From contig CAACVI010000050.1 of the NCBI GenBank assembly GCA_900659855.1, positions 1 through 64,000 on the forward strand: a stretch of 64,000 nt of DNA, written 5' to 3'. The notes below the pieces were generated by a model, which had not been told where the DNA came from, did no database searches, and worked only from the letters and a program-made list of their open reading frames with translations. Position numbers and translations under genes: made by a program. The stretch comes from Candidatus Desulfarcum epimagneticum (GTDB lineage: Bacteria; Desulfobacterota; Desulfobacteria; Desulfobacterales; CR-1). Shown piece by piece: positions 2,701 to 15,882 of the stretch (its first letter is position 1; each line of letters opens with the position of its first letter).

Positions 2701-4449
2701 GTGGAGTTAAAAACAAGTCTTTACATTGCTCTTGTCATTTTCGGTTTGGGCGTCGTTTACAAGGTTTCAACCTGGTTTCGCCACAGTCTCTCTCCGCAGG
2801 CGGAAGCGTTCGGCCCCGGGAAAAGGATCGCGGCGGTTTTGAAAGGAATTTCGGGGACCCTTTTTGGCCCCGGAATTTTGACCCTGGGGCGGGTCCTGGT
2901 TCTGGATGTGATCCTGCAGCGGCGGATATTGAGGGAGAGCGCCCTGCGATGGGCCATGCACATGTGCATATACGGCGGTTTTATGGCCCTTTTGTTCATG
3001 CACGCCCTGGGCTTTATGTTTTTTGCGGATTTCCAGTCCACCGTCAACCCCTTTCTTTTTTTAAGAGACCTGTTCGGAGTCATTGTCGTGGTCGGTCTGG
3101 GAATTTCGTTTTACCGGCGCCATATTCTGAAGATTCCAAGGCTTGTGAACAACGCCATGGACCATTACATGGTCGCCATTCTGGCCGCGATCATGCTCAC
3201 CGGTTTTCTGCTCCAGGCCTCCCAGATCACCTCTCATTCGGTTTATGAGCAGATGGTGCAGGATTATTCGGACATTGAGGACGAAGACGAGCTTAAGGCC
3301 CTTGAGGCCTTCTGGGTTGAAAATTACGGCGTGGTTTCCCCCGGGTCCAAACCCCCTTTTGACGCCGATCTCCTGGAGCTGGGGGCCGAGGCCAATGAAA
3401 TGAACTGCGCCGACTGCCACGCCCCGGCCCAGGCGGCCTTTGTCAGCTACGCCGTTTCCGCGGGGATCCGGCCCATCGCCTTGTATCTGAACCGGATCGG
3501 CTTTCACGACATCCTTTATTATTTTCATTTCTGGCTTTGCCTCATCGGGCTGGCCTATCTGCCGTTCAGCCGAATGTTTCATATCATCGTCAGCCCCATA
3601 TCGCTTCTGGCCAACGCCGTCGCGGATCCTGAGAAATCCGATCCGGCCGTCGTCGCCGTCCGCCAGATCATGGAGCTTGACGCGTGCACGCACTGCGGAA
3701 CATGCAGCGTGAACTGTTTCGTGGGGGTGATGTTTGAGGAGGCGGGAAACGCCAACATCCTTCCGTCTGAAAAACTGGCTTCGGTGAAAAAATTCGTCGC
3801 CGGCAAAACCTGCGAGACGGATGTCGGCGATATCCAGGAAGGGCTTATGATGTGCGCCAACTGCCGAAACTGCACGGTGGTGTGCCCGGTGGGAATCAAC
3901 CTCCAGGAACTGTGGTTTTCGGCCCGGGAAACGGCCCTGAAAGAGGGCGGCCCCCAGATGATGGCCCTTTCTTCCTTTTCCTTTTACCGGGGCCTGAAAA
4001 AAGAGGAGATTGAATCCGGTGATTACGCGGCGCCCGCGGACAGGGCGACCCAGGCGCTTGAGGAAAAGTTCGCCGACTTCGGCGAGGCGGACATATCCGT
4101 CAACCTTGAGGAAGGGGAGAGCGAATTCAAAAAAAGCCTGTCGCGGCTTTCCATCAACGGAAACACCTTCGCCTCATGCTTCGCCTGCACGACATGCACA
4201 TCCGTGTGCCCGGTGGCGAACCAGTATGAGGACTCCCCGGGGGACTTAGGGATCGGTCCGCACCAGATTATTCATTCCGCTGTGATGGGGTTTGACGATT
4301 TGATATTCAGGTCCAAAATGCTGTGGAGCTGCCTGGGATGCTATGAATGCCAGGAGGCATGCCCCCAGGGGGTTCCGGTGACCGACGTGTTTTATGAAAT
4401 CAAGAACATGGCCGCAAGACGTATAAAAGAAGATTCTCAAAGAGTGTAA
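2701..4449 (+). CDS. Membrane cytochrome / multi [4Fe-4S] Hdr-like oxidoreductase subunit
   Basis: A 582-residue protein. The N-terminal half has about five hydrophobic helices (roughly residues 6-25, 84-108, 122-140, 155-176, 268-298) resembling the cytochrome b part of DsrM/TmcC/NarI-type proteins. Between helices four and five lies a c-type heme motif, CADCH, at 236-240. The C-terminal half carries four ferredoxin-like clusters: CTHCGTCSVNC (329), CANCRNCTVVCP (385), CFACTTCTSVCP (493) and CLGCYECQEACP (544), like two HdrC modules in series. GTG at 2701 is chosen because AAGGGG lies 8 bases upstream; TTG at 2695 is too close to it. It probably links the quinone pool or a periplasmic cytochrome to the HdrB-like protein encoded 8 bases downstream. 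The electron donor and acceptor are not evident. Confidence 0.8.
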   Translation: MELKTSLYIALVIFGLGVVYKVSTWFRHSLSPQAEAFGPGKRIAAVLKGISGTLFGPGILTLGRVLVLDVILQRRILRESALRWAMHMCIYGGFMALLFMHALGFMFFADFQSTVNPFLFLRDLFGVIVVVGLGISFYRRHILKIPRLVNNAMDHYMVAILAAIMLTGFLLQASQITSHSVYEQMVQDYSDIEDEDELKALEAFWVENYGVVSPGSKPPFDADLLELGAEANEMNCADCHAPAQAAFVSYAVSAGIRPIALYLNRIGFHDILYYFHFWLCLIGLAYLPFSRMFHIIVSPISLLANAVADPEKSDPAVVAVRQIMELDACTHCGTCSVNCFVGVMFEEAGNANILPSEKLASVKKFVAGKTCETDVGDIQEGLMMCANCRNCTVVCPVGINLQELWFSARETALKEGGPQMMALSSFSFYRGLKKEEIESGDYAAPADRATQALEEKFADFGEADISVNLEEGESEFKKSLSRLSINGNTFASCFACTTCTSVCPVANQYEDSPGDLGIGPHQIIHSAVMGFDDLIFRSKMLWSCLGCYECQEACPQGVPVTDVFYEIKNMAARRIKEDSQRV

Positions 4450-4457
4450 GGAGACGG

Positions 4458-5498
4458 ATGGATATGGAATACGCAATACAACGCTGCTGCGCGACGGCGG
4501 TCTTTCTGGAACAGTACAATGTGTCCACAGACGCGGTGATGAAGAGACTGGGCGTGAATATCGTGGATATCAAGGAATTCAACTGCTGCGGTTATCCGGC
4601 GAAAAGCTGCGATTACAACGCCTACGCCCTGGCTTCGGCCCGGAATCTGTCCCTTGCCGAAAAGCGGAATCTGGATGTGATGACCTTCTGCAACTGCTGT
4701 TACGGCAGCCTGAAACATGTGGATGACCTGCTTCGGCGGGATCCCGAGGCCCTGGAAGGGGTCAACGAAAAGCTTCAAAAAGAAGATCTGCGCTTTGGAG
4801 GATCCTCCAAAATCAAGCATCTGCTGGAGGTCCTTTATTTTGATATCGGGATTGAGCGCATCCGGGAAAGACTGGTGAGGAGTTTTGAGGGAACGAAGAT
4901 CGCCGTCCACTACGGGTGTCATATCCTTCGGCCCGGGGAGGTCGCGAATTTCGGCGCTCCCGGGTCCGCCGCCATATTTGATGAGCTGGTGAAAATCACC
5001 GGCGCGGAGCTGGTCCCCTGGGACTTGCAGTCCCGATGCTGCGGCGCCTCCATGCGGGGGGTGGATGACGACCTTTCCGACAAAATCGTCCGGGGAAAAA
5101 TCGCCGACGCCAAAAAAGCGGGCGCCGACTGCGTCTGCTCGGCCTGCGCCTACTGCCAGCTTCAGCTGGACCGGGGCCAGCGGATGATGGCGGATCAAAA
5201 CGAGGGAGACCGGAAAAACGCGCTGCCCTCCATTCTGTTCACCCAGCTTTTGGGATTGAGCCTGGGAATTGATCCAAAGGAGCTGTCTGTTGAAAAAAGC
5301 GAAATGAGTCTTCAGACCATTGTGGACGCGCTTCTGGACAAAAAACCCGAGATCAAGAAAAAGAAGAAAAAGAAAAAAAAGAAAGTCGCCAAAAAATCCA
5401 AAAAAGCGGCCAAAAAGAAGACGGAAGCCAAAGCCGAAAAAGCCGACGATCCGCCCAAGGCTGAAAAACCGGCGGACGGCGGCGAAAAAGAAGAGTAG
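4458..5498 (+). CDS. HdrB-like CCG-domain protein with lysine-rich tail
   Basis: A 346-residue protein. Residues 1-285 resemble HdrB, the heterodisulfide reductase subunit with two CCG domains. Cysteine motifs are NCCGYP (42), CNCCYG (78), HYGC (151), RCCGAS (193) and CSACAYC (228). In HdrB these bind noncubane [4Fe-4S] clusters that reduce a disulfide. AAGGAG lies just upstream of the ATG, and the gene follows its membrane partner by 8 bases, so the two form one operon. The last 50 residues are an unusual tail: a run of about ten lysines, then Lys/Ala repeats, then an acidic end. This tail is not part of the family and may mediate membrane or partner binding. The true disulfide substrate is unknown. 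Confidence 0.8.
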   Translation: MDMEYAIQRCCATAVFLEQYNVSTDAVMKRLGVNIVDIKEFNCCGYPAKSCDYNAYALASARNLSLAEKRNLDVMTFCNCCYGSLKHVDDLLRRDPEALEGVNEKLQKEDLRFGGSSKIKHLLEVLYFDIGIERIRERLVRSFEGTKIAVHYGCHILRPGEVANFGAPGSAAIFDELVKITGAELVPWDLQSRCCGASMRGVDDDLSDKIVRGKIADAKKAGADCVCSACAYCQLQLDRGQRMMADQNEGDRKNALPSILFTQLLGLSLGIDPKELSVEKSEMSLQTIVDALLDKKPEIKKKKKKKKKKVAKKSKKAAKKKTEAKAEKADDPPKAEKPADGGEKEE

Positions 5499-5592: not shown

Positions 5593-6522
5593 TTAGACCT
5601 GGGGTCTGGGCAGAACGTTGGCCCGCTCGGCGATCTCAGGCACCTTGTGCTCCCACTCAATGGCCATGAAGTGAACGCCGTGAACGCCCTCCATCTCCTT
5701 GAACTCCTCGATCTGCTCACAGGCGATTTTGATGCCTTCCTCGGCCACCTTTCCCTTTTCCGCGCCCTGGAGACGTTTGATGATCTCCTCCGGGACATCC
5801 ATCCCCGGCACCTTGGACTTCATGTATTTGGCCATACCCACGCTTTTCATGGGGGTGACACCGGCCAGGATGTAGGCTTTTTCCGTCAGCCCCATGTCGT
5901 TGGCCTCTTTGATCCAGTTTCGGAAGCGCTCCATGTTGTAGATGCACTGGGTCTGGATGAAATCCACCCCGGCCCGGATTTTTTTGGCCAGGCGGTGGAC
6001 CCGCCATTCATACGGCTCGGCAAAGGGGTTGGCGGCGGCGCCGATGAACATTTTGGGCGCCTCGTCCAGTTCGGTGCCGCTCAGAAGCTTTCCCTCGTCC
6101 CGCATTTTTCGCGTCATCTGGATGAGCTGCATGGAATCCACGTCGAACACGCCCATGGACTGGGGATGGTCCCCGAACTGGGGATGGTCCCCGGAGAGGC
6201 AGAGCATGTTCCGAATGCCGAGGGCGTAGGCGCCCAGGATGTCGGACTGCATGGCCAGGCGGTTCCGGTCCCGGCAGACCATCTGGTAATTGGGCTCCAC
6301 CCCTTCCTGGATCGCGATGAGGCTGGCGGCCCAGCTGGACATGCGCACCATGGCGGTCTGGTTGTCGGTGATGTTGACCGCGTCCACCACTCCTTTAAGG
6401 TAACCGGCCTTTTTCCGCACCTCCTCGCTGTTGGCCCCCTGGGGGGGGCCCAGCTCGCCGGTGAATGCAAAGTGGCCGTTTACCAATATTTTTTCTAAAT
6501 TGCTCCCTGATTTCAACTCCAT
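5593..6522 (-). CDS. metF: Methylenetetrahydrofolate reductase MetF
   Basis: A 309-residue protein of usual length for the short anaerobic MetF. Visible family features are the N-terminal FTGELGPPQG, the NITDNQTA strand, LCLSGDHP and FIQTQCIYNMERF, which build the FMN/FAD TIM barrel. It reduces methylene-H4folate to methyl-H4folate, the last step of the methyl branch of the Wood-Ljungdahl pathway. It is the last gene of the operon that begins with hdrA2 and lies 33 bases after metV. The short MetF lacks its own NADH site and in Moorella takes electrons through MetV and an Hdr-MvhD assembly; the gene order here implies the same. A terminator follows at 5.5 kb. Confidence 0.93.
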   Translation of the reverse strand: MELKSGSNLEKILVNGHFAFTGELGPPQGANSEEVRKKAGYLKGVVDAVNITDNQTAMVRMSSWAASLIAIQEGVEPNYQMVCRDRNRLAMQSDILGAYALGIRNMLCLSGDHPQFGDHPQSMGVFDVDSMQLIQMTRKMRDEGKLLSGTELDEAPKMFIGAAANPFAEPYEWRVHRLAKKIRAGVDFIQTQCIYNMERFRNWIKEANDMGLTEKAYILAGVTPMKSVGMAKYMKSKVPGMDVPEEIIKRLQGAEKGKVAEEGIKIACEQIEEFKEMEGVHGVHFMAIEWEHKVPEIAERANVLPRPQV

Positions 6523-6555
6523 TTCAAGCGCCCTCTTTATCGGTTTGATTGAATT

Positions 6556-7224
6556 TTATTCGGATTTTTTGGAATACCCCGGCTGAATCACCGTTCGGGG
6601 AGTCTGGTTTCTCCAATCCTGGGGGGGGACCACATCCAGGATGGAATCCAGCCTGTCCTGTTTGGACAGCCGCTCGTAAATCATATGCCAGGCGCATGGC
6701 TGATCGGGATTGATTTCGCAGCTTCCTTGGTTGGTGCCGCCGCAGGGGCCGTTGTAGAGGCCCTTGGCGCACATGGTGACGGGGCAGATTCCCCCGGTCA
6801 TGCCCAGCACACAGGAGGCGCAGGAGCGACAGCGCTCTTCGTACCAGCCCACATCCTGGTTGATCCCGATAAACGAGGTGTCCACCCCCGGGAAAACAGG
6901 TTTGTGGGGGTAGCGCTCCGCAAGAAACTGGATGCCGGCGCCGCAGGCCATGGACAAAAGGGCCTCGCTTTCCTCCACCCGGTCGTCCAGGACCTCCATG
7001 TATTCCCGGTCGCATTGCCGCTCAACAGTGTAGGCGGCAAGATCAATGGGGTTTTCATCCAGCTTTCGCGCCATGTCCAGCTCCGCGTTTAAGACGTCCA
7101 CTTCCTTTTCGCCGCCGGCCAGGCATACGGCCACGCAGGTGCCGCAGCCGATGGTCAAAACCCTTTTGTAGTCCTGGATCATGTCTTTGATTTCATCAAA
7201 GGGTTTTCTTTTTGCAACTATCAT
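6556..7224 (-). CDS. metV: MetV, zinc/iron-sulfur partner of MetF
   Basis: A 222-residue protein of the methylenetetrahydrofolate reductase C-terminal (MetV) family. It opens with the typical KPFDEI and TIGCGTCVAVCLAGG. A second Cys-rich block, CRSCASCVLGMTGGICPVTMCAKGL, is followed by GPCGG; together these bind an iron-sulfur cluster and probably zinc. MetV couples MetF to its electron donor in acetogens and related anaerobes. GAGGAGGAG lies directly upstream of the ATG. The gene follows the hdrCB stop by 23 bases and precedes metF, so it sits at the junction of the electron-transfer and folate parts of the operon. No in-frame UGA is present here, unlike the five genes upstream. Confidence 0.92.
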   Translation of the reverse strand: MIVAKRKPFDEIKDMIQDYKRVLTIGCGTCVAVCLAGGEKEVDVLNAELDMARKLDENPIDLAAYTVERQCDREYMEVLDDRVEESEALLSMACGAGIQFLAERYPHKPVFPGVDTSFIGINQDVGWYEERCRSCASCVLGMTGGICPVTMCAKGLYNGPCGGTNQGSCEINPDQPCAWHMIYERLSKQDRLDSILDVVPPQDWRNQTPRTVIQPGYSKKSE

Positions 7225-7247
7225 CGCTCCTCCTCGTCAAATAAGCG

Positions 7248-8567
7248 CTACATGGCCGTTTCAGGGTGAAAGACATTCACCTCTTTGAGATCATCAGCAA
7301 GATATTCACGCTCATTGGGTCCCAAAATGCCCAGGGAAAGGCATATGAGGGTCCATAAATGAAGCACCGGGTAGTTCCCGCCGTAGTGCTCGCTCAGCTC
7401 ATGGATCTGGGCGTGGCAGTTGTGGCATCCCGCGATGCAGTAGTCCGCGCCGGTGGCCTTGATCTGCTCGTCTTTCAGCCTTCCGTACTTGAGCCGCTCC
7501 TCTTTGTAGCCGGACTGCAGAAAGCCTCCGCCGCCGCCGCAGCAATAGTTGTTGGACTTGCTGGGCGCCATGTCCACAAAATTCTCCTCGCCCACGACCG
7601 ATTTGACCACAAATCTCAAATCGTCGGCGATGGGATCGCCAAAGGTTTTCCGGACAATCTGGCACGGGTCCTGCACCGTGAACTTGATTTTTAAATCCTT
7701 GTTCCAGTCCGAGTTGACCTTGAGCTTGCCTTCCCGAATCCATTTGGCGTAATACTCATAAATGTTTTTGACCTGAAAGCTGTGAGGGATGTTGAATTTT
7801 TTCAGTCCTACCAGGACTGCGAAGGTGACGTGCCCTCACTCGGTGTTGAGATAGGTCTTGGCCTTGAGCTTCTCGGCCTGACCGGCCTGGCTTTCGACGA
7901 TCGTTTTCCAGCCCTCGTTGTCGGCCATGAAGAGGCAGTAGTTTTCCCCGGCCCATCCCACGCTGCCGTATGTCCAGTCCACCCCGGCCAGGTGGAGGAT
8001 TTTCCACAAAGGAACCATTTCGTCGGGCTCGGTCACCGGCTCCCTGGAGTTCTGGTTGACGAAGAATTCGGCGCCCTCTTTGTCGATGGGGGCCTGCATG
8101 TCCTTAAATTCGGGCTGGGACTCCCGGTACTCCTCCAGAACGTCCTCCACCACGAACTTGAAATCCTCGGGCGATGTGCCCATGGCGCTTCGGGTCTCGG
8201 TTTTAAGGGCCGTGTCGCATGAGCCCAGGATTCCCTTGGGCCGCTCTTCACGGGGGCGCAGCTGCCGGGCGTTGAAGATGAGCTGGGGAATGTCGATTTT
8301 CATGGGGCACAGGTAAACGCACCGCTGGCACATGGTGCACATCCAGGGCCACTCGGACTCGTATATCTCGTCGTCCATGCCTAATGCCGCCATGCGCAAA
8401 AATTTCCGGGGGTCCATGTCCTTGAGTCCGGTGGCGGGGCATCCCGAAGAGCAGAGCCCGCATGTCAGGCAAAGGTTCAGGTTTCCTCCCTCGGGGAGAA
8501 TCTCCATCACCCTGTCTTTGAAAGAGCCGGCCTTTTTGCCTCCTATCCTGATTACTTCTTCTGCCAT
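7248..8567 (-). CDS. HdrC-HdrB fusion (HdrD-like) selenoprotein
   Basis: A 439-residue reading frame if the UGA at 7836-7838 is read as selenocysteine (U244). Residues 33-87 carry two [4Fe-4S] motifs of HdrC type (CLTCGLCSSGC, CTMCQRCVYLC). The remainder is a CCG domain of HdrB type: U244-GH, DPC (C302), CCGGGGG (342-343) and CIAGCHNC (378-385). Homologues have Cys-Gly-His where this gene has UGA-Gly-His. Reading frame and conservation continue without a break past the UGA, and there is no start codon with a ribosome site after it. The start at 8567 has AAGGAG 9 bases upstream. Expected role: disulfide or ferredoxin-type electron transfer next to HdrA/MvhD and MetV. A stop at 7836 would leave a useless half protein. 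Confidence 0.85.
7803..7838 (-). promoter_or_regulatory. bSECIS hairpin after UGA of hdrCB
   Basis: Read on the minus strand, UGA (7838-7836) is followed after 23 bases by a GGU loop closed by a perfect 7-bp stem, CAGUCCU/AGGACUG (7803-7819). A hairpin with G in the first loop positions at 16-37 bases from the UGA is the bacterial selenocysteine insertion consensus. Confidence 0.8.
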
Positions 8568-8608
8568 TATCTTGACTCCTTGGTTGATTGATCGCAATGG
8601 TTGCGTCT

Positions 8609-9022
8609 TTATTTGTCCTTTAAGGGATTCGGGCCTATTTTTTTAACATTTTCAGCCATTTCCCGGGCGTAAGCGGCGAAGGTGGGGCCTTCCCCGGATG
8701 ACAGGTTGTACATCCTGATCCGGTCCCCCTCAAGGCCGATCTCATCCAGAACCGCCCGGGCGTGATTGACCCGCTCCCTGCACCTTAGGTTGCCCTCATT
8801 ATAGTGGCACGCCCCTTCCAGGCATCCCACGCAATAAACGCCGTCCGCGCCCTTCCGGATGGCGCGCAAAAGATACATGACATCCACCTTTCCGGTGCAG
8901 GGGACCCTGATGATTTTAATGTTCGCCGGATATTCGAGTCGCATGGAACCTGCCAGGTCCGCGGCCGAATATCCTCAATATTCGCAGCAAAAGGCGATGA
9001 TGGTGGGTTCAAAGTCAGCCAT
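8609..9022 (-). CDS. mvhD: MvhD selenoprotein (hydrogenase-type iron-sulfur subunit) 1
   Basis: A 137-residue protein with selenocysteine at residue 16, encoded by UGA at 8975-8977. The N-terminus reads ADFEPTIIAFCCEY-U-GYSAADLAG; homologues have the pattern CCEWCAYAAADLAG, so the UGA sits on a conserved Cys. Further Cys are C42 (RVPCTGK), C64, C67 and C72 (GCLEGACHYNEGN). MvhD binds a [2Fe-2S] cluster and connects HdrA to an electron donor such as hydrogenase or formate dehydrogenase. The ATG overlaps the TAA of hdrA1 by one base (TAATG), a sign of translational coupling. Without the UGA reading, the only start would be the internal ATG at 8944, which loses the first 26 residues and the cluster site. 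No hydrogenase gene is in the window. Confidence 0.88.
8945..8977 (-). promoter_or_regulatory. bSECIS hairpin after UGA of mvhD1
   Basis: On the minus strand the UGA (8977-8975) is followed after 20 bases by a GGC loop (8954-8952) in the stem GGACCU/AGGUUCC (8960-8945), with one bulged base. Spacing and loop G match the bacterial SECIS rule. Confidence 0.7.
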
Positions 9023-12000
9023 TAAACTCCTCCCGAAAGCAATGCGTCAATTTTGCATTTGATCTGTTCGTCTTCGTAAAAACCGAGCTGAATGGCCTGC
9101 CGGGGGCAGGCTCCCGCGCATGTGCCGCATCCGTGGCAGATGGCCTCGTCGATTTCGATGACCTTTTTCTCTTCGTTGAAAGCCGGCACATCAAAGGGAC
9201 AGGTTCGAAGGCAGGTGAGACACCTGACACAATGATCCGTGTCCACATGGGCCGTGATGGCGGACAGCTTGATCTCGGGCCTGGCCAGGAAAGTCGTGGC
9301 GCGGGCCGCCGCGGCCTGGGCCTGTGAGATGGTCTCGGATATCAGCTTGGGTCCGTGGGCCGTTCCGCACAGGAAAATGCCCTCCCCGGGCATGTCCACC
9401 GGCCGAAGCTTCACATGGGCCTCGATGAAGTAGCCTTCCTGGTTGGCGTTGAGCTTCATGATGCCGGCCAGCTCTTTCGTGTCGGCGGCTCTCACCCCCG
9501 CGCTTAAGGCCAGAAGGTCGGCCCGGATCTCGATGTCCCTTTCCAGGACATGGTCGCGGGTTCTCACCAGCACGCCTTCGTCGGAGGCCGAGACTTCGGG
9601 GAGGGAATCCAGATCGTGGCGGATAAACATCACGCCTTTTTCCCGGGCCTCTTTGTAAAAATCCTCCATCAGACCGTAGGTTCTCATGTCCCGGTACAGC
9701 ACAAACACCTGGGTGTCCGGGCTTTTTTTCTTGATCTTCAAGGCGTTTTTCACAGCGGCCTGGCAGCAGATCCTGGAGCATTCCGCCATTTCGTCGTTTC
9801 GGGAGCCCACGCACTGGATCATGACCACGCACTCGGGATCGTCCCAGGGGCCGTCTTCCAGCATGCGGGACAGCTCCACCTGGGTGGAGACCCGTTTGTC
9901 CTGCCCGTAGAGATATTCCGAGGGCTGGTATTCCACGGCGCCGGTGGCCACGATAATGACCCCGTGTTTGACGATTTTTTCATCGGTTTCGCCGTCAATG
10001 GAAAGCCGGGTCTCGAAATTGCCCTTGTAGCCGCCGAACCCTTTGATATGGGCGCCGGTGAGGACTTTTATTTTTTCATGGGCCGACACCTCGTTTGAGA
10101 GTTTTTCGATATAGGCGCCGATGTCGGCCCCCTCGATGGTGTGGATCAGGTTTCGCGCGAAACCTCCCAGAACCGGCTCTTTTTCCGTCAGAACCACCTC
10201 GAATCCCTGCCGGGCCAGACTCAGGGCCGAGTTCATGCCGGCCACGCCGCCCCCGATGACCAGGGCCTTCTGGATCACCTGGATGACCTTTTCCTTCAAA
10301 GGCTTCAGGGTCCCGGCGCGGGCCACGGCCATTCTCACCAGGTCCTTGGCCTTGGCGGTGGAGACTTCGGGCTGTTTGGAGTGAATCCACGAGTTCTGGT
10401 TGCGGATGTTGGCCATCTCAAAGAGATACCGGTTGAGCCCGCACGCCTCCAGGGTCTCCATGAACATGGGCTCATGGGTCTTGGGGCTGCACGAGGCCAC
10501 CACCACGCGGTTGAGATCGTGGGTTTTGATCATCTCTTTGATTTTTTCCTGGGTGTCCTGGCTGCATGTGAAGAGGTTGGAGTCGGCGAACACCACCCCG
10601 GGAAGGGTGGAGGCGTATTCCTGAACGGCGGGGACATCCACAATGCCGCCGATGTTGATGCCGCAGTTGCAGACAAAAACGCCGACCCGGGGGTCTTTGC
10701 CCGCGATGTCGATTTCCTCGGGCTGCTTCACGTGATCAATGTCGGCGCCCCGGGACTCGGACAGGTCCGCTCCGGCCAGGCAGGCCGCCGCGCCGGCTTC
10801 CGTGACCGATCCCGGTATGTCCTTGGGACCCTGGAAAACCCCGCAGACATAGATGCCGGGCCTGGAGGTTTCCACCGGTGAAAAGGGGTCGGTTTCGGCG
10901 AAATGGTACCGGTCCATGTCCACGTCCAGCCGTTTGGCCAGATCGACGGCGGAGTCGGGAATGGTGAGCCCCACGGAAAGCACGACCATGGAAAAGACCT
11001 CTTCCACGATGTCGCCGGCCTCATTGGCGTAGCGCAGCGCCAAATCCCCGGTCTCGGAAATCTCGGTGATGGTGTGGGCCCTGGCCTTGACGAACCGGAT
11101 GCCCTCCTTGTCCCGGGCCCTTAAGAAATATTTCTCATAGTCCTTGCCGAAGGTTCGCATGTCCATGTTGAACACGGCGCAGTCCAGATCGCCGTGGATA
11201 TGCTCCTTGGCGATCATGGCCTCCTTGGCCGCGTACATGCAGCACACCGACGAGCAGTAGCCGTTCCCGCACTGGTTCGAGTCCCGGGAGCCCACGCACT
11301 GGAGCCAGGCGATGCTCTTGGGCTCCTGGCGGTCCAGGGGGCGCATGACATGTCCGAAATACGGTCCGCCCGCCGAAAGGATTCGCTCAAAGCCCTCGGA
11401 GGTCACCACGTTGGGGTATTTGCCGTATCCCAGCGCCTCAATCCCGGACGGATCAAACCCTTTTGTTCCGGGCGCCAGGATGACGGAGCCCACGGTTTTT
11501 TTGGTTTCTTTGACCTTGTCGTCGTACCGCACGGCATTTGCCAGACACATTTTTTCGCAAAGACCGCAGCCCACGCACGCCTGGGCGTCGATGGCGAAGG
11601 CCAAAGGAACCGCCTGGGCGTACTCGATGTGCGTGGCCCGCCGGTCGTTTAAGCCCTTGTTGATTTCATTGACCGCCGAGACCGGACAGGCCCGGGCGCA
11701 GTCCCCGCAGCCTGTGCAGGCGGCGGGATCAATATAGCGGGGGTGGTTCGCCAGGGTGGCCATGAAATTTCCGGGCCTGCCCTCGACGGATTTCACCTCC
11801 GCGTTGGTGATCAGTTCAATGTTCATATGCCGGCCGACCTCGACCAGTTTGGGCGAGATGACTCACATGGTGCAGTCGTTGGTCGGGAAGGTTTTGTCCA
11901 GCCTGGCCATCAGGCCGCCGATGGTCGGGCCTTTTTCAACCAGGTAAACCTTATAGTCGGCGTTGGCCAGATCAAGAGAGGCCTGCATGCCCGCGATGCC

Positions 12001-12054
12001 GCCTCCCACCACCATGACCGAGCCGCTTTTTTTCATGTCCGTCACAGATCCCAT
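9022..12054 (-). CDS. hdrA: Long HdrA selenoprotein 1 (electron-bifurcating type)
   Basis: A 1010-residue protein with U64 from UGA at 11863-11865, in [17 protein letters not shown]. Homologues carry Cys at this site. Residues 14-60 form a Rossmann start ([11 protein letters not shown]). Two [4Fe-4S] motifs follow ([11 protein letters not shown] near 113, [11 protein letters not shown] near 160). A second, canonical HdrA begins near 460 with FVCNCG and a FAD site GGGVAGMNS (about 601), and ends with two ferredoxin motifs ([11 protein letters not shown] near 941, [11 protein letters not shown] near 972). Usual HdrA is about 650 residues, so this is a fused, double-headed form. HdrA carries the bifurcating flavin in Hdr complexes. 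ATG at 12054 has AAGGAG 6 bases upstream. It is flanked by mvhD2 and mvhD1. Confidence 0.88.
11833..11865 (-). promoter_or_regulatory. bSECIS region after UGA of hdrA1
   Basis: UGA at 11865-11863 is followed after 17 bases by a GGUCG apical loop (11845-11841) on a bulged stem spanning 11854-11833. The loop recalls the GGUCU loop of E. coli fdhF. A 33-base run around it (11827-11859) is identical in hdrA2. Confidence 0.6.
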
Positions 12055-12063
12055 CGTTTCTCC

Positions 12064-12816
12064 TTATCCAATGGCGGTGAACACCGGTTTTCGGTCTTCC
12101 ATTCCGGAAAATTCCACCCGATTGGATCTTTCAAGGTCGGCCAGGAGATAAGAGACCCGCAAAAGCTCAATGCCGGCGCTCTTCGCCACGTCCCGAACCG
12201 ATCTGTCTCCATTTTTAATGGAAAGGAAAATCAGGTTTTTCTGGTATTCCCTTTCCAGTTCATTGTCAATGACGTCCTCATAGCGCTCCTTGTCCCAGGG
12301 GCGCCCGTAAACGTCTCCTTTGGCCGTGATCGCAGACTCTTTTCCCACCAGCCATCGGATGGACTGGTTTTCAAGGGTCATTTCCACCGCCTCAAGCTCT
12401 ATTTCAAAGTCTTCGGGCTTGAATTTTCCGCATTTTCGCACACAGTCCGTGACGCGATGGGCCGTGTCCACAAAACGCTGGGCCTCGGCGGAGGACACCC
12501 ATTCGATGTGGAGCCGCTCGGCGCCGATTCCGGAGATATCCAGCAGTTTTTTCGCCATTCGTATTTTTTTGTCGGCGTGAACATTACCTTCCAGGTAATG
12601 GCAGTCTCCGAAATGTCACCCCGCCACCAGGACGCCGTCGCATCCCTGGCGAAACGCCTTGATGACAAAGAGCGGGTCCACCCTTCCGGAGCACATGACC
12701 CGGGCCGAGCGGACGGAGGAGGGGTAGCGCATCCGCGAAACCCCCGCCAGGTCCGCGCCCGCGTAGGCGCACCAGTTACAGAGAAAAGCCAGAATTTTAG
12801 GCTCGAATTCATTCAT
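12064..12816 (-). CDS. MvhD selenoprotein 2 with C-terminal extension
   Basis: A 250-residue protein with U67 from UGA at 12616-12618, in [17 protein letters not shown]; homologues have GGCHPGDCHY here. The N-terminus ([23 protein letters not shown]) keeps Cys at 13 and 16. Residues 1-150 are MvhD; the remaining 100 residues form an extension that ends in a winged-helix-like segment ([24 protein letters not shown]). The start at 12816 is preceded by AAGGTG. The gene lies between hdrA2 and hdrA1 with short gaps (51 and 9 bases), so each HdrA has its own MvhD. Expected role: [2Fe-2S] electron entry to HdrA. If the UGA were a stop, neither half would be a functional MvhD. Confidence 0.86.
12582..12618 (-). 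promoter_or_regulatory. bSECIS hairpin after UGA of mvhD2
   Basis: UGA (12618-12616) is followed after 23 bases by a GGA loop closed by a perfect 8-bp stem, CAUUACCU/AGGUAAUG (12600-12582). This is the cleanest of the five hairpins. Confidence 0.82.
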
Positions 12817-12867
12817 ATTTTTCACCTTAGATTTTTCACTTGGTTTGTCCAAATCATGCCCGCGTCG

Positions 12868-15800
12868 TCACACCGCCAGAATGGACGCCTCGATCTGGGC
12901 GTCTCTGAAATGCAGCATGTCGATGGCCTGTTTGGGGCAGGACGCGGCGCACAGGCCGCATCCCTTGCATGAGGCCGGTATGTTTTTGGCCCGGCTTCCC
13001 GCGCCGTCGGTCTCTTCCAGGACAATGGCGCCGAAGGCGCAGATCTCCTCGCAAAGCCCGCATCCGACGCATTTTTCCGCGTCGGCTTTGGACACCAGCG
13101 GGGAAATGTCGATAGAGTCTCTGGCCAGAACCGCCGCGGCCCGGCTGGCCGCCGCCATGGCCTGGGCGACGCTGTCGTCGATGGATTTGGGATAATGGGC
13201 CAGGCCGCACATGAAAAGGCCGTCGGAGGCGAACTCCACAGGTTTGAGCTTGGCGTGGGCCTCCATGAAGAAATTCTCCTCGTTCACGGGGAGTTTGTAA
13301 AAAGAGGCCAGCTCCTGGTTGTCATGGGGCTCGATGGCCGTGGCCAGGTTGATGAGATCGGCCTTGATGTCCAAGTCCCGGCCGATGACGGGGTCGTGGA
13401 CCCGGACCATGAGATCGCCGTTTTCCTCTCTGACCTCGGGCTTTTTTTCCGGCGTGTAGCGAATGAACAAAACCCCTTTCTCCCGGGCCTCTTTGTAAAT
13501 CAGCTCCCTTTCCCCGAATGTCCGGATGTCCCGGTACAGGATATAAACCTGGGCGTCGGGGTTTTCGTCCTTGATGTCGATGGCCATGGACACCGAGGCC
13601 GTGCAGCATATGCCCGAGCAGTAGGGATGGCCTTCCTCCCGGGACCCGACGCACTGGATGAAGACCACGCTGTCGGCGCCTTTGAGACGCCCGGGGTCGT
13701 TTTCCAGATCGTGCCACACGCTCACCCGGGGGTCTTTGCCCAGAAGGTATTCATCGGGGCTGGAGGAGTGGCCGCCGGTGGCCATGATGGCCACGCCGTG
13801 CTCAATGGAGGCGGGCGTCCCGTCCACAGACACGTCTGTGACATAATTGCCCACAAAGCCGGAGGCCCCGGTGATGGCGGCGCTCAGAAGCGTGTCGATG
13901 TCGGGATGCTTTTCGACTCTTTCGATCATGTCTTTTAAAAAGGCCTGGACATCGGCGCTTTTCCAGGTTTTTTTAACGTCCCGGGCCGCGCCGCCCAGAA
14001 CGGCCTCTTTTTCCACGATGGTGGTTTTAAATCCCTGTTCCGCCAGGCTCAGCGCGGCCGTCATGCCGGCCACCCCGCCGCCCGCCACCAGCGCGGATTT
14101 TTTCACCTCCACGGAAAGATCGGGAATGGGCTCCAGAACGCCCGCCCGCGCCACGCCCATTCTCACCAGGTCCCGGGCCTTTTGGGTGGCTTTTTCTTTT
14201 TCGTCCGAATGCACCCAGGCGCACTGGTTTCGGATATTGGCCATTTCAAAAAGATAGGGGTTGAGTCCGGCGTTTCGGATGGTCTCCTGGAAAAGGGGCT
14301 CGTGGGTTCTCGGGGTGCAGGCCGCCACCACGACGCGGTTGAGCCTGTTTTCCCGGATCGCCTCGGCCATTTTTTCCTGGGTGTCCTGACTGCATGTGAA
14401 GAGGCTCTCCTCCACGTACTCCACGCCGGGAAGGCTTTTGGCGTATTCCACGACGCCCGGCACATCCACCACCCCGCCGATGTTCACGCCGCAGTTGCAC
14501 ACAAAGACCCCCAGGCGGGGCTCTTCGCCGGCCACGTCGGTTTCGTCGGGAAAGCGTTTCGCGGACGTCATCTCGCCCCGGGCCGGGGCCAGCTTCATTC
14601 CGGCGGCGCAGGCGGCGGCGCCGGCCTCCACCACGGACTGGGGGATGTCTTTGCAGCCCCGTATGACGCCGGCGGCGTATATGCCGGGTCTGGAGGTGGA
14701 GACCGGGGCGATGTCTTCGGTTTTGACGAAGTTGAACCGGTCCAGCTCGATTCCCAGGCGGCCGGCCAGGTCCGCGACGGAGTCGGCCGGCTCCATGCCC
14801 ACGGAAAGGACGAGCATGTCGAATGTCTCGTTTTCGATTTCCCCGGACTCGGACACGTAGGCCAGCTTGAGGGTTCCGGAGTCGTCCGCCTCCTGGACGG
14901 TGTGAACCCGGGACCGGATGAACCGGGTCCCCTGGTCCTTGGCCCGTTCGTAGTATTTTTCAAAATCCTTGCCGTGGGTCCGCATGTCGATATAAAAAAT
15001 GGTGGGCTCAAAGGAATCCCCGATATGCTCCTTGGCGATGACGGACTCCTTGATGGCGTACATGCAGCACACGGACGAGCAGTATTCGTTGTCGCACCGG
15101 TTCATGTCCCGGGATCCCACGCACTGGAGCCAGGCGATTCTTTTCGCTTCCTGTCCGTCCGAGGGACGAAGCACATGGCCGCCCGTGGGGCCGCCCGCCG
15201 CCAGGATGCGCTCAAACTCCAGGCTGGTGACCACATTGGGAAAGGCGTGATGCTGGTAGTTGTCCAGACCCGAGGGATCAAAGGGTTTGAATCCCCCGGC
15301 CACGATCACGGACCCCACGTTGATTTTTAAAATCTCTTCGGTTTCGTCAAAACGGATGGCGTCGGTGGGGCAGAACTTTTCGCACGCCTTGCATTTTCCC
15401 TTTTTAAAATAAATGCACCTGTCGGCGTCGATGGCGTATTTCAGGGGAACCGCCTGGGGGTAGGGCAGGTAGATGGCCTTTCTTTTGGCCAGGCCCTCGT
15501 TGAACTCGTCGGAGGTTTTCGCCGGGCATTTTTCAGCGCACGCGCCGCAGGCGATGCACTTGTCCAGGTCCACATACCTCGGGGATTTTTTGACCGAGAC
15601 GGTGAAATTGCCCTCTTCCCCCTCAATGCCTTCAATGGTTGACAGGGTTAACACTTCGATATTCAGATGCCGGCCGACCTCGACCAGTTTGGGCGAGATA
15701 ATTCACATCGCGCAGTCGTTGGTGGGAAACGTTTTGTCCAGCCGGCTCATCACGCCGCCGATGGCCGAGGTTTTTTCAACCATGTGCACATAATAGCCGG

Positions 15801-15882
15801 AATCGGCGAGATCAATCGCCGCCTGCATTCCGGTGATTCCGCCCCCGACCACCATGACGGATCCCACGGGCTTGTCAGTCAT
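12868..15882 (-). CDS. hdrA: Long HdrA selenoprotein 2
   Basis: A 1004-residue paralogue of hdrA1 with the same layout: N-terminal Rossmann segment (VVGGGITGMQA), U60 from UGA at 15703-15705 in [17 protein letters not shown], two ferredoxin motifs (CIACGACAEKC, then a modified CIYFKKGKCKACEKFC), a canonical HdrA half (FVCNCG, GGGVAGMTA) and two C-terminal [4Fe-4S] motifs ([22 protein letters not shown]). The start at 15882 has AAGGAG 7 bases upstream. It is the first gene of the operon, with a 321-base upstream region shared with the divergent kinase gene. The second N-terminal cluster differs from hdrA1 by an inserted stretch between the first two cysteines. Two different long HdrA in one operon suggest two bifurcating sites or a heteromeric complex. 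Confidence 0.88.
15673..15705 (-). promoter_or_regulatory. bSECIS region after UGA of hdrA2
   Basis: The sequence after the UGA (15705-15703) is identical to hdrA1 over 15667-15699, giving the same GGUCG loop 17 bases from the UGA. Identity exceeds that of the surrounding coding sequence. Confidence 0.6.

Follow-up and report, generated by a model that had tools for sequence, protein, structure and literature searches.

A cytochrome b with a heme c loop fused to HdrC as a candidate membrane terminus of HdrA-based complexes in Desulfobacterota

The window analysed here is a stretch of 64,000 nucleotides from Candidatus Desulfarcum epimagneticum (contig CAACVI010000050.1, positions 1 to 64,000 of the forward strand). 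Positions 2701 to 5498 hold two genes. The first encodes a single polypeptide, hereafter the fusion, that joins a five-helix cytochrome b, a heme c loop and two dicluster domains, the second of HdrC type. The next gene encodes an HdrB-like protein. The features are as follows.

2701..4449, + strand: fusion gene (five-helix cytochrome b with heme c loop, dicluster domain 1 and HdrC-type dicluster domain 2), 582 aa; Pfam, NCBIfam, model and structure match
2959..3003, + strand: helix 2 with the heme b ligands His87 and His101, in 85/85 alignment rows; pairing with helix 5 inferred from NarI
3232..3501, + strand: acidic loop joining helix 4 to helix 5 (residues 178-267) and predicted to be periplasmic; 4 Lys/Arg vs 16 Asp/Glu
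3253..3255, + strand: Met185, proposed sixth ligand of heme c, from its conservation pattern
3406..3420, + strand: CADCH heme c attachment motif, residues 236-240; CxxCH column shared by 84/85 rows
3526..3582, + strand: helix 5 with the heme b ligands His276 and His294, in 85/85 rows
3676..3927, + strand: dicluster domain 1, residues 326-409, SdhB/DsrK-like; Fer4_8, with SdhB and FrdB chains matched
4162..4431, + strand: dicluster domain 2, residues 488-577, HdrC domain; TIGR03290 69 bits, chain 8rvu E 2.5e-19, Z 12.9
4458..5498, + strand: HdrB-like protein, 346 aa, two CCG domains with both five-Cys sets; Pfam and alignment
5349..5495, + strand: lysine-rich tail of the HdrB-like protein, 20 Lys/Arg in the last 45 aa

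The open reading frame of the fusion starts with GTG, which is preceded by AAAGGGGA. It contains four [4Fe-4S] motifs with 16 cysteines (C329/332/335/339, C385/388/391/395, C493/496/499/503 and C544/547/550/554). Pfam recognizes two Fer4_8 diclusters, while the NarI-like PF02665 stays just below threshold (22.1 bits vs a cut-off of 22.9). The original prediction had described one polypeptide with a cytochrome b domain, a CADCH motif between helices 4 and 5 and four [4Fe-4S] motifs, followed by an HdrB-like protein, and Pfam, the motifs, the alignment and the structural model all bear this out. The top NCBIfam scores of the fusion are 70.6 bits for GlpC, 69.0 for HdrC and 62.3 for QmoC, each far under its own cut-off (300 bits for the QmoC model NF038018). 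The models of DsrK and TmcB score still lower, at 23.3 bits vs 400 and 18.5 bits vs 735, and hence the difference from DsrMK/TmcBC that had been suggested is real. The HdrB-like neighbour reaches 243.8 bits vs 345 with TIGR03288, the model of CoB-CoM HdrB. Because these scores fall below the cut-offs, neither protein can be assigned straightforwardly to a named family. A scan for promoters and terminators gave signals no more frequent than in shuffles.

An AlphaFold2 model, built from the 85-row alignment A3 described below, has a mean pLDDT (predicted local distance difference test) of 89.9 and long helices at residues 2-27, 81-101, 118-141, 152-177 and 268-289, the last two of which flank the CADCH motif. 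The best structural match of the whole chain is mycobacterial EtfD (9ojn; Z 23.3, 335 residues, span 1-552). NarI matches residues 1-316 (Z 11.2), and the HdrC structures 8rvu and 8rwn match residues 462-576 (Z 12.9). Sequence searches agree with this division, as methanogen HdrC matches residues 466-577 and SdhB/FrdB-type proteins match the first dicluster. Among the structures listed by Foldseek and VIA-align, nothing was nearer to the fusion than EtfD, HdrC and NarI, although this is not proof of absence. With five helices and two histidines on each of two of them, the membrane part has the layout of a di-heme cytochrome b of the HdrE/NarI type.

The loop with the CADCH motif is predicted to face the periplasm, because there are five helices, the iron-sulfur clusters lie inside, and the charges are distributed according to the positive-inside rule: the family median net charge is +4 and +5 for the inside-predicted loops, and -1 and -9 for the outside-predicted ones. 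Alignment with EtfD and NarI places it outside as well, which was the topology on which the original prediction depended. A heme motif on the cytoplasmic side is ruled out by the fold and the charge pattern. Since CADCH is only 36 residues ahead of His276, the heme c is expected to lie beside the outer heme b.

Conservation was assessed in homologues from two sources, namely 58 genomes of the order and one scan of named genomes that yielded 80 loci. The latter were metagenome-assembled genomes or isolates titled Desulfobacterota, Deltaproteobacteria, Proteobacteria or subgroups thereof, and the loci were retrieved with two peptide patterns, neither containing CxxCH. Alignment A3 comprises the window sequence, 17 order-level sequences and 67 of the 80 named loci; the other 13 were omitted because their reading frame was partial or its start mis-called. 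His87, His101, His276 and His294 are invariant in A3. CxxCH is present in the homologous reading frame of all 80 named loci and, including its His, occupies one column in all A3 rows except one, which rules out a chance motif or pseudo-heme site. The exceptional row, L019, has an in-frame loss of about residues 184-270 and retains the cytochrome b. The same gene, seen as L049:8111-9595, thus represents a natural deletion of the heme c loop that removes Met185 and CxxCH together; the rest is intact, and HdrB and HdrA follow. Met185 itself is kept in 83 of the 85 rows, with a His in L068 and a gap in the loop-less L019. This is the pattern expected of a ligand, with one His replacement and a loss together with the CxxCH motif, and Met185 is therefore probably the sixth ligand of heme c. 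The conserved CxxCH, on the side indicated by model and charges, marks the loop as that of a c-type cytochrome with predicted covalent heme attachment.

The HdrB-like reading frame begins eight bases past the stop codon of the fusion. Pfam finds two CCG domains on it, and the sequence search matches the HdrB of 5odc. Both C-CC-CxxC sets for non-cubane clusters are complete (Cys11, 43, 44, 78 and 81; Cys154, 194, 195, 230 and 233), and the window protein retains both catalytic cysteines, Cys81 and the equivalent of Cys234. Other members of the family differ in this respect. Cys81 is replaced by Gly in 6 of 86 HdrB sequences (L058, L060, L071, L082, L087 and L103), and the second catalytic Cys by Ser or Thr in 13 of 87 (including L039, L040, L076 and L078). 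With one of the two catalytic bridging Cys replaced, HdrB may in some family members act as a mere electron relay instead of carrying out disulfide chemistry. The lysine-rich tail of the window protein is unmatched in 86 relatives; the runner-up among the 87 sequences has 12 Lys/Arg.

The same fusion was sought in other genomes, as the original prediction had called for. The survey covered 100 loci, 20 in addition to the 80 from the named-genome scan, with 97 distinct proteins (L032/L063, L046/L104 and L058/L060 are same-protein pairs). Where 1 kb or more of sequence follows the fusion, the next gene on that strand encodes HdrB in 83 of 85 loci, and the pair is a unit of two genes found across Desulfobacterota. 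Cultured carriers include Desulfatitalea alkaliphila, Desulfatibacillum alkenivorans and Desulfobacter latus. Of the 74 loci that extend 2 kb or more past HdrB, 35 have HdrA downstream in the same orientation, at most 1.2 kb away in 32 of them. Anywhere in the locus, HdrA was found in 42/100 cases vs 0/20 random 17.7-kb stretches from eight genomes of the phylum (Fisher p 8e-5). In 28 of 36 HdrA frames there is a TGA at the upstream end, with the HdrA N-terminus before it (TNDCAM-U-ISPK type), and the downstream HdrA is therefore probably a selenocysteine-bearing protein in most cases. Depending on the locus, HydB/HydG-like, NuoEF or formate dehydrogenase genes come after HdrA. In 10/100 loci HdrB is followed by an ATPase with the Pfam domain CbiA, which we take to be CooC-like. 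One variant of 745 aa (L043:833-3067, - strand) joins the heme c membrane part and first dicluster to two CCG domains and has no HdrC; its layout resembles that of EtfD/HdrF, with CxxCH.

Several relatives place the unit within clusters for the methyl branch of the Wood-Ljungdahl pathway. The run fusion-HdrB-HdrA-MvhD-MetV-MetF occurs on one strand in L045, L152 and L163, and fusion-HdrB-HdrA-MetV-MetF in L085, which has the same protein as L154. L153 shows the order HdrA-fusion-HdrB-MvhD-MetV-MetF. The run fusion-HdrB-HdrA-(MvhD-)MetV-MetF was found in at least four species, and Pfam confirmed each of its genes in L163. The contig of L152 ends before the final MetF, and there the first gene of the methylenetetrahydrofolate reductase (MTHFR) family precedes the fusion. 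At L152:7271-8152 (- strand), L163:3446-4360 and L164:446-1318, just 5' of the fusion, lies a gene for a second and more distant member of the MTHFR family, distinct from the terminal MetF. Between the open frames of the L163 and L152 runs there is no space for a separate hdrC. Because the order matches the HdrC-first MetFV-HdrCBA-MvhD cluster of Moorella and Sporomusa and leaves no room for another hdrC, the fusion takes the hdrC slot.

Three loci carry a soluble counterpart. In L155:9388-10284, L156:9583-10518 and L157:10965-11900, double-dicluster proteins of 299-312 aa are followed by HdrB near HdrA-MvhD-MetV-MetF. They are homologous to the C-terminal half of the fusion, and since they have the two dicluster domains alone, the membrane half is the added part. 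Genes for carbon monoxide dehydrogenase/acetyl-CoA synthase (CODH/ACS) lie directly upstream of the fusion in L051 (the same as L160), L087 and L103. In L158 a MetF-MetV-MvhD-HdrA operon is convergent with fusion-HdrB, and no HdrB or fusion of its own was found in that operon. This layout resembles that of the window, where the following genes lie next to the unit.

5593..6522, - strand: MetF (MTHFR); PF02219, 135 bits
6556..7224, - strand: MetV (DUF5981); PF12225, 125 bits
7248..8597, - strand: HdrD/DsrK/TmcB-like protein with in-frame TGA at 7836-7838, likely selenocysteine; profile scores
8609..8944, - strand: MvhD; PF02662, 124 bits
9022..12054, - strand: HdrA with in-frame TGA at 11863-11865, likely selenocysteine; profile scores

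This MetF-MetV-HdrD-MvhD-HdrA operon (5593-12054, - strand) converges on fusion-HdrB and ends about 95 bases from HdrB. The longer Wood-Ljungdahl/Hdr gene run at 5593-15882 (- strand) holds four in-frame TGA codons at selenocysteine-like places, with those in an MvhD (12616-12618) and a second HdrA (15703-15705) in addition to the two listed. The genome also has one CODH/ACS match above cut-off, two cytochrome c assembly matches, Qrc and Tmc. In the tree, the window fusion sits in a supported set of 31 of 105 rows; among the rows closest to it by path are L051, L085 and L152, with Wood-Ljungdahl linkage, as well as L055 and L077, without it.

Sequence, conservation, the model and gene order together establish the anatomy of the fusion, its organization with HdrB as a two-gene unit, and the repeated association of this unit with HdrA. 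As to function, we lean towards the view that the fusion is a membrane-integral HdrC and that the unit forms the membrane terminus, that is, the quinone and cytochrome c end, of HdrA-based complexes, its partner in the window most probably being the neighbouring MetF-MetV-HdrD-MvhD-HdrA. The parts would be a cytochrome b of the NarI/HdrE type that binds two b hemes, a periplasmic heme c loop with His240 and probably Met185 as ligands, a relay dicluster, and the C-terminal HdrC, with HdrB supplied by the next gene. They could form a single continuous electron wire, leading from a cytoplasmic flavoprotein module through the HdrB/HdrC clusters, dicluster 1 and the two b hemes to menaquinone and/or heme c, and on to periplasmic cytochromes c. 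During oxidation of acetate or acetyl-CoA by the reversed Wood-Ljungdahl pathway, MetF would oxidize methyl-tetrahydrofolate (methyl-THF), and the electrons would go via MetV to HdrB/HdrC, where HdrA could split or merge electrons with ferredoxin, NADH or MvhD. After dicluster 1 and the two b hemes, they would either reduce menaquinone or leave via heme c to periplasmic cytochromes. In the reverse direction, periplasmic donors would feed CO2 fixation. The potential of menaquinone is -74 mV. For methyl-THF, an E0' of -200 mV is given in PMC9430772. Three papers describe MetFV-HdrABC-MvhD as linked to the membrane through an unknown component (PMC8578096, PMC9430772, PMC6895022).

Several observations weigh against this view. 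The two operons of the window are convergent, and hence not one transcript, and the MetF operon carries its own HdrD-like protein. Wood-Ljungdahl genes were found in only 18/100 loci vs 1/20 controls (p 0.19, not significant alone), and elsewhere the unit is accompanied by NAD(P)H-type (HYDB, 9/100), NuoEF or formate dehydrogenase modules. Co-occurrence was examined in the 58 genomes of the order and in a phylum sample of 395 genomes, 53 of which carry the family (four of them, G102, G137, G195 and G350, match the dicluster half only), with the phylum cross-tables counted by hand. CODH/ACS occurs in 18 of 20 carriers vs 28 of 38 others in the order (p 0.19), and in 45/53 carriers vs 212/342 other genomes in the phylum sample (p 0.001), where the corresponding counts for MetV are 48/53 vs 253/342 (p 0.009). 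These p values are too small because the genomes are related, and co-occurrence is weak as proof of a role. Moreover, a CODH/ACS match is absent in 8 of the 53 carrier genomes and a MetV match in 5, and three genomes that are 99-100% complete (G265, G328 and G442) have dsrA but neither MetV nor CODH/ACS. A function strictly limited to the Wood-Ljungdahl pathway is ruled out by the other modules and by the carriers without MetV or CODH/ACS. Because the linkage to this pathway is partial and such carriers exist, as do carriers without dsrA, the unit is best understood as an end-piece in the membrane that serves HdrA complexes and has no single role. Near the branch of the window, MetFV is the clearest client that can be identified.

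One alternative explanation might be that the unit is an oxidoreductase for DsrC-trisulfide, or another disulfide. Electrons would then pass between a disulfide protein of the cytoplasm and the active site of HdrB at one end, and between the membrane part and both menaquinone and periplasmic cytochrome c at the other, in a system parallel to DsrMK or Tmc. The complete non-cubane sites of the window HdrB would suit such chemistry. The genome also has one DsrC-family gene and dsrA, and in the phylum sample dsrA is commoner in carriers (39/53 vs 151/342, p 9e-5). However, no dsrA match was found in 14 of the 53 carriers (for example G067, G105, G309 and G330), nine of which are at least 90% complete, two of these nine having the soluble variant only. 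In addition, a catalytic Cys is replaced in some HdrB proteins of the family, and no DsrC neighbour turned up, though the neighbour searches used no DsrC query. We regard this explanation as unlikely. The original prediction had proposed a connection between periplasmic c-type cytochromes, the quinone pool and a cytoplasmic disulfide or thiol cofactor. Its cytoplasmic end has to be revised, as gene order points less to a free disulfide or thiol cofactor than to HdrA-based complexes, above all MetFV-HdrA, and also to NADH- and formate-linked modules; for a disulfide partner such as DsrC, the retained catalytic cysteines speak in favour and the carriers lacking dsrA against.

The unit might instead be a general hub, in which a single membrane HdrC/HdrB is shared by several HdrA complexes (NAD(P)H, formate, MetFV), with bifurcation or confurcation between ferredoxin, these donors and the quinone/cytochrome c pool, and with MetFV as only one of the clients. 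This would fit the variety of genes after HdrA, the 12 switches of Wood-Ljungdahl gene linkage on the tree, and the presence of the family in genomes without MetV or CODH/ACS matches. Yet, the nearest HdrA in the window belongs to the MetFV operon, and several of the nearest relatives of the window fusion are linked to Wood-Ljungdahl genes. We regard a general hub as improbable to about the same degree as the disulfide oxidoreductase. A quinone reductase of beta-oxidation like EtfD/EMO/HdrF, fed by electron-transfer flavoprotein, is very improbable: mycobacterial EtfD is the best whole-chain structural match and in the L043 variant this membrane part with its heme c is fused to CCG domains, but no EtfAB-type cluster stood out among the named neighbours, albeit without a dedicated EtfAB query, and the window HdrB keeps the bridging Cys that EtfD lacks according to PMC13083937.

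Taking the unit as a membrane end-piece for HdrA complexes, we can compare it with known systems. It resembles MetFV-HdrCBA-MvhD of Moorella thermoacetica and Sporomusa ovata in the gene set and order HdrC-HdrB-HdrA-MvhD-MetV-MetF of L045, L152 and L163. In contrast to the small soluble HdrC of that complex, however, the HdrC domain here makes up residues 488-577 of a membrane protein that also contains a heme c-bearing cytochrome b, and in the window the genes are split over two convergent operons. EtfD/EMO/HdrF proteins consist of cytochrome b, a dicluster and two CCG domains, and share the whole-chain fold of the membrane and dicluster parts; here, the CCG domains are found only on the separate HdrB (4458-5498), and an HdrC domain and a heme c loop are extra. 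HdrDE of Methanosarcina combines an HdrE-like cytochrome b with HdrC and HdrB domains, whereas in our unit HdrC is fused to the cytochrome, HdrB is separate and heme c is added. In QmoABC, HdrC is joined to an HdrE-type membrane part in QmoC, in the opposite domain order to that of the fusion, and works with HdrA-like flavoproteins; the fusion differs by its extra dicluster and heme c, and by the presence of HdrB. DsrMK and TmcBC pair a cytochrome b with an Hdr-like Fe-S protein and receive heme c from other subunits, while here it lies within the cytochrome b itself. For HotSeep-1 (AMM42179-AMM42180), HdrA is described together with a CCG-domain protein to which hemes c are bound, as a possibly bifurcating system (PMC10553843). 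Compared by this description alone, CCG and heme c are in one protein there and in two here. HdrF of Desulfobacterium autotrophicum joins membrane, HdrC and HdrB domains (PMC2702500). All parts are of known kinds. Neither their union in a single polypeptide nor the position of that polypeptide within MetFV clusters was recognized in the open-access literature searched, which covers few subscription papers; the closest descriptions there are those of the HotSeep-1 and D. autotrophicum proteins.

Because the gene in the hdrC slot is itself a cytochrome b with heme c, the fusion is a concrete candidate for the long-sought membrane link of the CO2- and acetate-metabolism clusters, in acetate oxidizers of sediments that include cultured ones. 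More tentatively, MetFV-HdrABC-MvhD may in many Desulfobacterota be a membrane-integral respiratory complex, with HdrC fused to a cytochrome b whose periplasmic heme c has His/Met ligation. A single complex would then connect flavin-based electron bifurcation or confurcation, together with the methyl branch of the Wood-Ljungdahl pathway, directly with menaquinone and periplasmic c-type cytochromes. Through such a periplasmic c-heme port, an Hdr complex could couple carbon metabolism with hydrogen, formate or interspecies electron transfer.

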